Part shown: piece by piece, positions 14,688 to 21,848 of the stretch | Numbering within the stretch: the first letter of the stretch is position 1 | Layout of the letters: each line of letters starts with the position of its first letter | NCBI GenBank assembly: GCA_001626925.1 | Contig: LUOR01000027.1 | Span: forward strand, 1 to 64,000 | Direction: 5' to 3' | DNA: 64,000 bases | From: Moraxellaceae bacterium REDSEA-S32_B1 | GTDB lineage: Bacteria; Pseudomonadota; Gammaproteobacteria; Pseudomonadales; Moraxellaceae | Position numbers and translations under genes: made by a program | The notes under the pieces: generated by a model | The model's database searches: none | What the model was told of the DNA's origin: nothing | The model's input: only the letters and a program-made list of their open reading frames with translations

Positions 14688-15395
14688 ATGAAAAATTTAG
14701 TAGTGTTTTCAGGTGCAGGCATGAGTGCCGAAAGTGGTATCAATACCTTTCGAGATAGCGATGGACTTTGGGAAAACTACCGTATCGAAGACGTTGCCAC
14801 ACCTGAGGCTTGGGCGAAGAACCCTAAACTTGTTCAGCAGTTTTATAATCAGCGTCGTAAACAAATCATCGAAGCACAGCCAAACAGCGCACATCTCGCC
14901 ATTGCTGAATTAGAAAATGATTTTTCAGTGCAAGTGATCACGCAGAATATTGATGATTTGCATGAGCGTGCAGGCAGTCAACATGTATTACATTTGCATG
15001 GAAATATTCGTTTAGCAAAATCTTCAAAATTGTCTTTGGATGCAAAAGAAACCTATTATCCCATCGAAGGTTGGGAACTTGATCTTGAATGTGACCTCTG
15101 CCCACAAGGCTATCCGCTTCGTCCGCATGTGGTGTGGTTTGGTGAAGCCGTGCCTGCATATGAACAAGCAATTCATATGGCGAATAAGGCAGATATTTTT
15201 ATTGTGATTGGGACAAGTCTAGCAGTCTATCCTGTTGCTGCTTTAGTGCATGAAATCCCTGCACATTGCCAAGCCTTTTATATTGATCCAAAAGCAGATC
15301 AATCTGCAATCCCTGCGCAATATCAACGTATCACAATGACCGCAAGCGAAGGCATGCAATACATTCAAGATGTCTTGCGAAAAGACAATAATTGA
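14688..15395 (+). CDS. cobB: NAD-dependent protein deacylase (sirtuin, CobB-like)
   Basis: The enzyme removes acyl groups from protein lysines using NAD+. The 235 residues show GAGMSAESGINTFR (NAD site), QNIDDLHERAGS and the catalytic His in LHLHGN. Tyr and Arg of FYNQRRKQ match the class III residues that bind succinyl or malonyl groups, so desuccinylation is likely. Oddly, only one cysteine pair (CDLC) of the usual four zinc ligands is present; the region after LHLHGN has none. It sits close behind the DUF1615 lipoprotein gene. Confidence 0.88.
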   Translation: MKNLVVFSGAGMSAESGINTFRDSDGLWENYRIEDVATPEAWAKNPKLVQQFYNQRRKQIIEAQPNSAHLAIAELENDFSVQVITQNIDDLHERAGSQHVLHLHGNIRLAKSSKLSLDAKETYYPIEGWELDLECDLCPQGYPLRPHVVWFGEAVPAYEQAIHMANKADIFIVIGTSLAVYPVAALVHEIPAHCQAFYIDPKADQSAIPAQYQRITMTASEGMQYIQDVLRKDNN

Positions 15396-15476: not shown

Positions 15477-15552
15477 GTCCCTATCGTCTAGAGGCCTAGG
15501 ACATCGCCCTTTCACGGCGGTAACCGGGGTTCGAATCCCCGTAGGGACGCCA
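15477..15552 (+). tRNA. tRNA-Glu (anticodon TTC)
   Basis: The acceptor stem GTCCCTA pairs with TAGGGAC, the anticodon loop CTTTCAC carries TTC, and the T-arm is CGGGG-TTCGAAT-CCCCG. The CCA end is encoded. The 76-nt gene follows its own strong promoter. Confidence 0.97.
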
Positions 15553-15696
15553 TTATTCTTATAATAATTTTCTCTCTTTTTAATTTTTCCTTTCTAATCA
15601 AGTTCATTGAATGTTTCGCATTTTCTATTTTTCACTTTTTAAATCTTTGTTTTCCTTTTAAACTCATTGCTATCTTTTACTTTTTATTCTTCATGT

Positions 15697-16614
15697 ATGT
15701 TTTCACATTTAGATGATTATTACTGCTTTGCCATGGTTGTTGAGTATGGTGGCTTTAGTGCAGCCGAACGTGCTACAGATATTCCAAAATCAAAGCTGAG
15801 CCGTCGTATCCAAAAGCTTGAAGAATATTTAGATATTCGCCTCATTCATCGCAACTCAAGACAGTTCTCTGTGACCGATATGGGCATGCAAGTTTATGAG
15901 CGTGCAAAAGTCATGATCGAAGCTGCCAAGTCTGCCGAAGATTTTGTGCAAAACCTGAGCGATACGCCACGTGGTACGGTCAAAGTCAGTATTCCTACAT
16001 CAATGGCACAGAATGAATTTGCAAAAATTCTGCCTGAGTTTTTGGCACTTTATCCTGAAGTACGATTACAGCTTTTAATTAGCAATCGACGTGTTGATCT
16101 GATCAATGAAGGCATTGATTTGGCAGTTCGTGTCCGCACACAGCTTGATGAAGATAGTAATTTGATTATTCGTCGTTTTGGCATCAGTGAACAACATCTA
16201 TGTGCAAGCCAAGCCTATCTCAATCAATATGGTGCGCCAAACAGCCCTGATGAACTTGCAACACACCGTATATTGAGTATGTCAGATCAATTTATTCAGC
16301 AAAATATTGAACTGAAATGCACCGATGGCTCTTTGGAAAAAGTACAGATTCAGCCGATGTTATTGGGCTCCGATTTGATCATGCTCGCAGAATTGGCCGC
16401 CAAAGATTGTGGCATTGCCCTACTTCCCGATTCTGTAACATCGGAAAAAATTGCCTCAGGTGAGTTGGTCTATGTCTTGCCTGATTATCATGCGCAACAT
16501 GGTATTTTCCATATGGTCTATCCAAGTCGCAAAGGTGTTTTACCTGCGGTACGTGTATTGATTGACTATTTGGCAGAAAAATTAACCCAAGAATGTGAAA
16601 TTCCTATGACTTGA
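15697..16614 (+). CDS. LysR-type transcriptional regulator
   Basis: This 305-residue regulator has an N-terminal winged helix-turn-helix (FSAAERATDIPKSKLSRRIQKLEEYL) and a periplasmic-binding-like effector domain from about residue 90. The ORF track starts at a TTG (15667); the ATG at 15697 (MFSHLDDYYCFAMVVEYGG) fits the family start better. It lies 190 bp upstream of, and in the same direction as, the nitroreductase gene, which may be its target. Its effector is unknown. Confidence 0.9.
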   Translation: MFSHLDDYYCFAMVVEYGGFSAAERATDIPKSKLSRRIQKLEEYLDIRLIHRNSRQFSVTDMGMQVYERAKVMIEAAKSAEDFVQNLSDTPRGTVKVSIPTSMAQNEFAKILPEFLALYPEVRLQLLISNRRVDLINEGIDLAVRVRTQLDEDSNLIIRRFGISEQHLCASQAYLNQYGAPNSPDELATHRILSMSDQFIQQNIELKCTDGSLEKVQIQPMLLGSDLIMLAELAAKDCGIALLPDSVTSEKIASGELVYVLPDYHAQHGIFHMVYPSRKGVLPAVRVLIDYLAEKLTQECEIPMT

Positions 16615-18193: not shown

Positions 18194-20077
18194 TCAAATC
18201 ATCAAACTATTTTGTTTTAGCATGCGATCGACAATGCTATTCGACTCAAAACCAAAGCGCCAGTAAAGCAATTCTAACACATCGAGCTCATCTTGGCTGA
18301 TGGATCGATTTGCCCACATTTCTTGTTCAATCACAGCGAGCAAATACATCCGTTGTCTATATAAAAGTCCTGAGATGCTTTGAATACACTGCCCCAAATC
18401 TATCTCATGTTCTGTAATCCGAGTATAGGCTTGCAACTCATGATGTTTAAGAATTTTCTTTAAAATCCGTTGCCTGACTTTCACTTGCCTAAGACTGTCA
18501 ATTTGTTGTACATGAAGCACCGCATCAACCACAACGACTAGCTCAGTTAAACAGTTTTCACGAATCACAGGCAATGATGGCTCAAGTAATGACTGTGTTG
18601 CTTTCACCCGATCAAAAAGCAAACTATCTAATAAGCCAATCTCGCCATCAGCCTGAATAAGCGAAGCAATTTTCTTTAGATAATGATGACTGATGATATT
18701 CGGCATACGATCAATATATTGCAAAGCATCATTAAAGATTTGCAAATGGATACGACCATCAAGCTTTAGCAATGCTTCAACGATCGCCCGACTCACCTCT
18801 GCATCTTCAGGAATAAACTCACGGTATTGGCGAATCATAAATATCGCCAAAATGACCTCACGGCTACCTGTCGCCGTTTGCATTGCACGGACAATGACGT
18901 CAGGTCGTTGCCAACCTTGTCTTAACTCAAGGCTAAGCGGTTTCATTGCATCTTTGGTCGCAAAGCTAATCGGTGAAAGTCGAAGTACAGGTGATGGATG
19001 TATTGAAAATTGATTGCTAGTATCAAAAATTTCCAGTACACGTGTTTCATTGGTTGGCAACAAAAAACGTGCGGCAAGCTTTTTCCAATCAATGACATTA
19101 TTTTTATTTTGCAGTTTGAAAATCTGGCTATTTAAATCATGCAGTTGATCAATTCGATCACTGAGAATTGCATGGACTCTAAACCAACTTTGTTCAGTCA
19201 ACGCATTAGCAAAGCACATATGTGCAAGTGCTTCACTTTCTACTCGAAAAAGTTGTGAGCCGTAGGTATGCACATAGATACGACTCAGTGCGTGTAACAA
19301 GTCCTCTTCAGCAACGAAGCTTAAAGTTTGCTGGTCAACTGGATATTCACGACGGACATACAACAGAAATTTGACGATGCGGCTAATCAACACCCCAAGA
19401 CTGCCCAATAGCCAAATAAACCCGCCCCAAGCCACATAGATCGCTGCAAACTTACTATCCATCACCAACGATTTACGCTTCGTGCCTTTTACAACAAACA
19501 AACTACCAAGCTGTGAAAAATATAAAAGACCACTGCACCAAACGAGTAATCGAGTATGTTCAATAAATGCATTGGATTGAATATGTACATACTGCTGAGC
19601 AATGAGTGCTTTAATCTCAGGATAATCCATCGATTGAAGCGCACCCCATGTCAGCACAATACTGGCATCTTTTTTCCCAAACCCCACGGTAAATGCATTA
19701 ATACCAAGCTCATCATGTAGCACAAATAAATATGCAGGTTTGACACCACAAAGACTGGCGATTTCATCATTGATTTGTAATGCAATGCTTTCATTTGGGA
19801 CTGCATTGAGTCGCTCAATCGCTTTTGCACGAAGGTGTTTTGCAACAAATCGTCCATCACCTTTATAAATAAGCTGTCGATAAATAATATTCAGACCACA
19901 CAGCAAAAATATACCAATAATCACTGCAGGACTAAGTACATGCCACCAAATAGATTGTGTACTATCAAAAAAATGCACAATCAAACCAAATATAAAATTC
20001 AGTACCACAATGACGGAAACCAACGCCAAAGCAAAGACCACAAGCAATTTAAAATGATGAATCCGTAAACTGATCAT
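18194..20077 (-). CDS. Membrane protein, degenerate M48 (Ste24/HtpX-like) metallopeptidase
   Basis: This 627-residue protein has two N-terminal membrane segments (about 10-35 and 46-66) and two more near 178-195 and 213-235. Between them lies an M48-like block: AFTVGFGKKDASIVLTWGAL, then IKALIAQQYVH. Active M48 enzymes have HEFSH where this one has QQYVH (161-165), so the first zinc His and the catalytic Glu are lost. The family's later RREYxxD block is kept as RREYPVD (242-248), and the usual THPPLxERI has become VHAILSDRI. The C-terminal 300 residues are helical and unassigned. It is probably a pseudo-protease with a scaffold or regulatory role. Confidence 0.75.
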   Translation of the reverse strand: MISLRIHHFKLLVVFALALVSVIVVLNFIFGLIVHFFDSTQSIWWHVLSPAVIIGIFLLCGLNIIYRQLIYKGDGRFVAKHLRAKAIERLNAVPNESIALQINDEIASLCGVKPAYLFVLHDELGINAFTVGFGKKDASIVLTWGALQSMDYPEIKALIAQQYVHIQSNAFIEHTRLLVWCSGLLYFSQLGSLFVVKGTKRKSLVMDSKFAAIYVAWGGFIWLLGSLGVLISRIVKFLLYVRREYPVDQQTLSFVAEEDLLHALSRIYVHTYGSQLFRVESEALAHMCFANALTEQSWFRVHAILSDRIDQLHDLNSQIFKLQNKNNVIDWKKLAARFLLPTNETRVLEIFDTSNQFSIHPSPVLRLSPISFATKDAMKPLSLELRQGWQRPDVIVRAMQTATGSREVILAIFMIRQYREFIPEDAEVSRAIVEALLKLDGRIHLQIFNDALQYIDRMPNIISHHYLKKIASLIQADGEIGLLDSLLFDRVKATQSLLEPSLPVIRENCLTELVVVVDAVLHVQQIDSLRQVKVRQRILKKILKHHELQAYTRITEHEIDLGQCIQSISGLLYRQRMYLLAVIEQEMWANRSISQDELDVLELLYWRFGFESNSIVDRMLKQNSLMI

Positions 20078-20242
20078 ATGCAGACCGAAAAATGGTGATA
20101 AAACAGCATGTGTAAGTAAATCTATCCGTATATTTTTAGTGATAACTTATTTTGAGTCGTATCGCAAGCATATCCATTGGATATAGTTCACTGAAACGAC
20201 CTGAATTCTGAGCCAAAAACAAATATGATGGAAAATAAGATG

Positions 20243-20279
20243 AAAAAAAGACGCTTAAACTTTTCGCTTAAACGTCTTT
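20243..20279 (-). terminator. Terminator of purF
   Basis: Read on the minus strand, AAGACGTTTAAGC-GAAAA-GTTTAAGCGTCTT forms a 13-bp stem with two G-U pairs, followed by a T-tract. Confidence 0.85.
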
Positions 20280-20306
20280 CTGCTAGCTCATCAAACACGA
20301 TAAATC

Positions 20307-21848
20307 TTAAGCGTCTTCTTTGATACCAGTTAGATCAACCGATGCCGCATCGACGTTGACATCAATGTAGCCATCTTTTTTCTTCTTCGCCGTATCATTA
20401 CGACTTTGTTCAAGACGCTTCAAATACTCGGCATCAATGCCTTCAGTGACATAATGTCCATCAAATACCGCACAATCAAACTCGGTGATTTTAGGGATTT
20501 TCTTAGTACGTACAGCCGCTTTTAAGTCTTCCAAATCTTGGAAAATCAAACGATCTGCGCCAATGATTTGACGGACTTCTTCAACGGTACGATCCGCTGC
20601 GATCAATTCAGATTTTGCAGGCATATCAATACCATAGACATTCGGGAATTTAATCATTGGCGCTGCAGAGGCAAAAAACACTTGTTTCGCACCAGAATCA
20701 CGTGCCATTTGAATAATTTCTTCACAGGTCGTACCACGTACGATCGAGTCATCAACAAGCAATACATTCTTGTCTTTAAACTCAAGTTCTACAGGGTTGA
20801 GCTTTTGACGGACTGATTTTTTACGCTGTTGCTGACCTGGCATAATGAAGGTACGACCGATATAACGGTTTTTCATAAAACCTTCACGGAACTTCACACC
20901 AAGATAATTTGCAAGTTCAAGCGCAGATGTACGACTGGTATCTGGAATCGGAATGACCACATCAATTTCGTGATCTTTGCCCCATTCTTTAAGAATTTTA
21001 TGTGCAAGCTTTTTACCCATTTTCAAGCGAGCCTTATAGACAGAAATCCCATCAAGCGTCGCATCTGGACGAGCAAAATACACATATTCAAAAATACATG
21101 GACGATGTAATGGCGCAGTCGCACATTGCTGTAGGAAAAGATTACCTTTGCTATCAACAAACATCGCTTCGCCGGGTTCAAGATCACGTTCAACCTTAAA
21201 GCCTAGAGAAGTAATCGCAACCGATTCTGACGCGATAATATATTCCATACCTTCATCAGTTTCACGAGAACCATAAACCAAAGGACGAATACCATTCGGA
21301 TCACGGAAGCCTACCAAGCCATGCCCTGTGATCAATGCGACCACACCATACGCACCTTTACAACGCTGATGTACACTAGTTACAGCGATGAAAATGTCTT
21401 TTTCGCTTGGGTTGACCTTGCCACATTTTTGCAATTCATGTGCAAAGACATTAAGTAAAACCTCTGAGTCGGAGTCAGTATTGATATGACGCAAATCTGC
21501 GCTAAATAAATCTTTATGAATATCTGCTGCATTGGTCAGATTGCCGTTATGGGCAAGGGAAATACCATATGGCGAATTGACATAAAACGGTTGTGCTTCT
21601 GCACTACTTGATGAACCTGCAGTCGGGTAACGAACATGACCGATGCCATAGTTGCCGACTAATGCACGCATGTGGCGTGTGTGAAACACATCTCGCACCA
21701 TGCCATTGTCTTTACGGAGATATAGACGCCCATCATGGCAGGTAATGATCCCTGCTGCGTCCTGTCCACGATGCTGTAACATGGTTAACGCATCATATAA
21801 CATTTGATTTACTGGCGACTTCGCAGCTATACCAACCACACCACACAT
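20307..21848 (-). CDS. purF: Amidophosphoribosyltransferase
   Basis: PurF makes phosphoribosylamine from PRPP and glutamine, the first committed step of purine synthesis. The nucleophile Cys2 follows directly after Met (MCGVVGIAA), giving an N-terminal Ntn glutaminase domain with HRGQDAAG and [11 protein letters not shown]. The phosphoribosyltransferase domain has the PRPP loop [13 protein letters not shown] near residue 360. The length of 513 residues is normal. It follows cvpA by 113 bp in the same direction, the classic cvpA-purF pairing. Confidence 0.97.

Follow-up and report, generated by a model that had tools for sequence, protein, structure and literature searches.

A membrane M48 homologue with a degraded zinc site, kept across Acinetobacter at a locus without lemA

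The locus and its altered motif

We analysed a 64,000-nucleotide window of Moraxellaceae bacterium REDSEA-S32_B1 (contig LUOR01000027.1), in which a gene on the minus strand encodes a homologue of M48 membrane metalloproteases. The features of the gene and its upstream flank are listed with the basis for each.

18194–20077, minus strand: putative M48-like membrane pseudoprotease, 627 amino acids (open reading frame and orthologues)
18197–18997, minus strand: C-terminal helical domain, residues 361–627, possibly TerB-like (conservation and profile comparison)
19136–19732, minus strand: Pfam Peptidase_M48 match, residues 116–314 (E 4.5e-8)
19334–19336, minus strand: Asp248, invariant in 171/171 Acinetobacter orthologues (alignment)
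19346–19348, minus strand: Glu244, third zinc-ligand column, retained here and Thr in most Acinetobacter (alignment)
19361–19441, minus strand: predicted transmembrane segment 4, about residues 213–239 (hydropathy)
19490–19546, minus strand: predicted transmembrane segment 3, weak, residues 178–196 (hydropathy)
19583–19597, minus strand: QQYVH, residues 161–165, in the HEXXH column (orthologue alignment)
19883–19939, minus strand: predicted transmembrane segment 2, residues 47–65 (hydropathy)
19991–20047, minus strand: predicted transmembrane segment 1, residues 11–29 (hydropathy)
20078–20306, no strand: gap between purF and the M48 gene, the place occupied by lemA in the sister-genus locus L079 (locus comparison)
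20245–20281, minus strand: terminator-like hairpin after purF (pattern match; number found not above chance)
20307–21848, minus strand: purF-like gene (GATase and PRTase), the conserved upstream neighbour in Acinetobacter (Pfam)

The reading frame starts with ATG and, as the original prediction had it, is intact across 627 codons. That prediction also placed M48 blocks around the altered motif, and this is confirmed by the Pfam profile (PF01435; 33.6 bits against a cut-off of 20.3). QQYVH (CAG CAG TAT GTA CAT) occupies the column in which orthologues carry HEFSH or HEYSH, so that the first His and the catalytic Glu are indeed both Gln and the HEXXH zinc/catalytic motif of active M48 enzymes is absent. 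The third zinc-ligand Glu (RExxxD) is present in the window clade as Glu244, within RREYPVD (residues 242–248). HMCFANAL (residues 286–293), described as near the end, is so for the M48 domain but not for the protein, more than 300 residues of which come after it.

Hydropathy suggests two N-terminal transmembrane segments and two past the motif, the layout expected of HtpX. Structure prediction from three sequences gave a pLDDT of 37; the family profile matches HtpX (PDB 3cqb) with an E value of 2.8e-11. The protein resembles HtpX and related M48 membrane proteases (PF01435; 3cqb) in its membrane-anchored M48 domain, its matching profile and spacing, and its third-ligand Glu. It differs from them in having QQYVH for HEXXH, carries a further helical domain at the C-terminus (about 270 residues) and scores far below the NCBIfam HtpX cut-off (51.8 against 355 bits). 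Residues 361–500 of this domain are the most conserved part within Acinetobacter. The domain is perhaps TerB-like, which we offer as a lead only: Pfam TerB (PF05099) matches 7 of 19 relatives weakly (best E 2.1e-4) and does not match the window protein's own C-terminal domain, and PDB 2h5n, a structure we take to be TerB-like, comes up weakly in the profile comparison (E 0.04–0.1).

The nearest named records are from an uncultured Acinetobacter sp. (94% identity) and A. sedimenti (88%). Both sister species have QQYVH, with the same residues and the same five codons, at gene-wide dS values of 0.41 and 0.92. Within this trio whole-gene dN/dS is 0.074–0.096, and residues 361–500 have values of 0.02–0.04. 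Given the codon identity in two sisters and a dN/dS of about 0.075, the site is not an error and the gene is not decaying. Many structural residues of the M48 domain (N127, G132, T143, G145, E154, D248, H302 and R308) are fixed or nearly so.

Zinc-site states and repeated residue loss

The gene was matched in 176 of 176 Acinetobacter genomes, the sole genome without a clear orthologue being 64% complete. The site was readable in 171 of the genus, one genome per species, and was scored at His161, Glu162, His165 and Glu244. At least one of these four catalytic or zinc-binding residues is gone in 169 of the 171 orthologues, in varying combinations. All four are intact in only two (L055 and L095; HEYSH followed by the Glu), and these congeners are 55% identical to the window protein. 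Written in the order 161-162-165/244, the states include HEQ/T (n=61), HEK/T (n=48) and YEQ/T (n=31), along with HEQ/Q, HQK/E and YAQ/T; the window clade is QQH/E (n=3). In the rest of the genus it is mostly His165 and Glu244 that are gone. QQxxH is confined to the three-species clade, and the conservation proposed as a check on the original prediction holds across that clade but not elsewhere in the genus, where other residues were lost.

Outside Acinetobacter the site is intact in 26/26 orthologues and in a further 20/20 that were among the lowest scorers of an order-wide search (46/46 in all). A different genus of the family has an M48 relative (L269, G067) with HEYGH in an 800-codon open frame, with LemA upstream. 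Within Acinetobacter, four species (L035, with HEFNH, and L247, L257 and L263) keep HExxH and have Thr in the third zinc-ligand column. Two extremely divergent orthologues, L090 (G156) and L114 (G032), have none of the four residues; their genomes are 1.9–2.4 Mb.

When the motif columns are left out of tree building, the Acinetobacter proteins fall into a single clade with intact sister proteins. The intact pair groups first with L007 (HEYCQ, Gln for Glu244), the next neighbours being L056 (HQYQK, with the Glu) and the window clade; the deepest branching order among the lost lineages is only partly resolved. A single ancestral loss, with all lost proteins as one clade, was rejected (AU test, p 0.00034). 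No residue of the four is missing from all lost lineages, so the ancestor was most likely intact. This implies four or five separate losses, provided that residues are never regained; plain parsimony needs two changes, one loss and one regain, and the count of losses thus depends on irreversibility. Orthologues with HEXXH had been named beforehand as a sign of strain-specific decay. L055 and L095 are literally such orthologues, but both lie inside the group of losers, which points to repeated loss rather than to decay in one strain.

Absence of lemA and shift of constraint

The gene order is pyrD-cvpA-purF-lemA-M48 in L079 and pyrD-cvpA-purF-M48 in Acinetobacter (purF and cvpA identified by Pfam, pyrD named from sequence). 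Outside Acinetobacter LemA, scored in order-level loci with a LemA profile, is encoded directly upstream in 25/25 loci with flanks and in 20/20 extra loci (45/45); the two proteins tested against Pfam gave E values of 1.9e-44 and 1.1e-51. Directly upstream in Acinetobacter, lemA was found in 0 of 18 loci, both intact species included. The LemA-linked proteases of other genera of the family and order (L075–L089, L104–L113 and L264–L285) are like the window protein in tree, length and domain order. They have HEXXH, the Glu and an adjacent lemA, however, whereas in Acinetobacter no lemA adjoins the gene and the zinc site is mostly degraded.

Because lemA is missing also beside the two intact species, parsimony places its loss before the zinc losses. 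As lemA was lost once, a causal connection with the zinc losses has weak statistical support: it depends on the latter being clustered in one clade, for which a crude branch-share calculation gives 0.02–0.05; two LemA-less species, L055 and L095, stayed intact.

In Acinetobacter the balance of constraint has shifted away from the M48 domain and towards the C-terminal one. The ratio of C-terminal to M48 divergence has a median of 2.3 outside the genus (13 pairs) and 0.82 inside it (15 pairs), a pattern from which some small-genome Acinetobacter pairs depart. For the M48 domain, dN/dS is 0.015–0.018 in the sister genus that has LemA, 0.066 in the intact pair that lacks it and 0.075–0.085 in the window trio; the C-terminal domain has values of about 0.04 in both the sister genus and the intact pair; these group values come from single pairs and are indicative. 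Since the intact pair already has a value of 0.066, relaxation of the M48 domain seems to have come after the loss of LemA and before the site broke.

Several other features of the neighbourhood were observed. The hairpin after purF suggests that the M48 gene is transcribed apart from purF, on the basis of a pattern match whose number of hits is not above chance. The LemA proteins that do occur in Acinetobacter were considered as a relocated partner and rejected, as they form separate branches and adjoin TPM or DUF3137-like genes. The window's own genome has, on contig C80 (L155:1402-1980), a divergent second Acinetobacter LemA without the RRxDLIPNLVE core, adjoining a DUF3137-like gene. A conserved family of 213–264 amino acids without a Pfam match is encoded downstream of the M48 gene (L098:4675-5316, L079:1000-1794); it occurs in sister genera, with a leuA-like gene between, and in most Acinetobacter, and is not in the window clade. 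The window also has a Sir2-family gene (14688–15395), then tRNA-Glu (15477–15552) and a LysR regulator (15667–16614).

A proposed history and its alternatives

A protease homologue without catalytic residues that evolves under purifying selection is a pseudoprotease, and the window protein is one by this definition. The kept, non-proteolytic role first proposed for it is well supported by the residue losses in 169 of 171 orthologues, the open frame throughout the genus and a dN/dS of about 0.075. We think it probable, though by no means assured, that a LemA–M48 membrane protease module lost LemA in Acinetobacter and then turned, several times over, into a membrane scaffold without proteolytic activity. 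The gene derives from the protease member of a two-gene membrane module present across the order, lemA with an M48 protease carrying a C-terminal helical (perhaps TerB-like) domain. On the Acinetobacter stem lemA would have been dropped from the locus, lifting constraint on the M48 domain, which could then have shed residues of its zinc and catalytic site on several separate occasions; His161 and Glu162 would both have become Gln in the window clade. The protein would have been retained as a folded, membrane-anchored scaffold without proteolytic activity, selected mainly for a function of its C-terminal domain, and the dead M48 cleft perhaps still binds something. Of this history, the data show the ancestry, the missing lemA, the recurrent residue losses, continued purifying selection and the shifted constraint; the causal part of LemA loss, the lack of catalysis, the topology and the role as a scaffold are inferred. 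A bolder proposal, which we make tentatively and hold to be possible rather than probable, is that a widespread M48 membrane protease cannot do without LemA as its activator, adaptor or substrate gate, so that once LemA is lost the catalytic site becomes dispensable and the orphan became a scaffold at least four or five times in parallel within one genus.

The most likely rival is a regulatory pseudoprotease, whose dead M48 domain would modulate proteolysis by binding substrates or an active paralogue, for instance HtpX, like iRhoms and FtsHi. Purifying selection on the M48 domain (dN/dS about 0.08), its many fixed or nearly fixed structural residues and the presence in the same genome of a further four M48 proteins whose HEXXH is intact all speak for such a role. 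Within Acinetobacter, however, the C-terminal domain is more constrained than the M48 domain, and the gene is unlinked to htpX or another protease; we consider this reading rather unlikely.

Continued hydrolysis through other residues or metals might be expected from the His165, Glu244 and Asp248 that remain in the window protein, and from the four species in which both His are kept (HEFNH in L035). The general base and one His are gone in the window clade, though, the third ligand is missing in members of the main clade, and the retained residues vary by lineage, so that no common alternative site is visible, which makes this very improbable. Slow decay of a dispensable gene would account for relaxed M48 constraint, the residue losses and fast evolution in some lineages, but is hardly tenable for a gene matched in all 176 genomes (the one without a clear orthologue being the incomplete assembly), stop-free over the matched frame in every listed Acinetobacter orthologue, and with a dN/dS of about 0.075 that reaches 0.02–0.04 in residues 361–500. 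Nothing speaks for an artefact of assembly or base calling in the window, and identical codons in two independent assemblies leave it a negligible chance.

On the favoured reading of a converted scaffold, Acinetobacter, which includes A. baumannii, is a natural experiment that would tie LemA to M48 proteolysis: a bacterial M48 pseudoprotease is kept genus-wide, its site intact in some species and half-lost or fully lost in others, and the disappearance of the neighbouring LemA is a candidate cause of site loss. LemA is widespread and, to our knowledge, its function is unclear. Our literature search, in which subscription journals were thinly covered, returned nothing specific on a LemA–M48 pair or an Acinetobacter M48 pseudoprotease. 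Most Acinetobacter members still score at or above the M48 profile cut-off, and the label 'M48 metallopeptidase' would therefore mislead.

Pseudoproteases are known mostly from eukaryotes. The iRhoms are inactive membrane protease homologues retained for binding or regulation; unlike the window protein, they belong to a eukaryotic serine intramembrane protease family. M48 goes unmentioned in a 2024 review of metallopeptidase pseudoenzymes (PMC11266112). The FtsHi pseudo-proteases of Arabidopsis (PMC8197885) are likewise homologues of membrane metalloproteases that have no working zinc motif and yet are functionally important, but they are FtsH-family proteins of plant organelles with an AAA+ motor.
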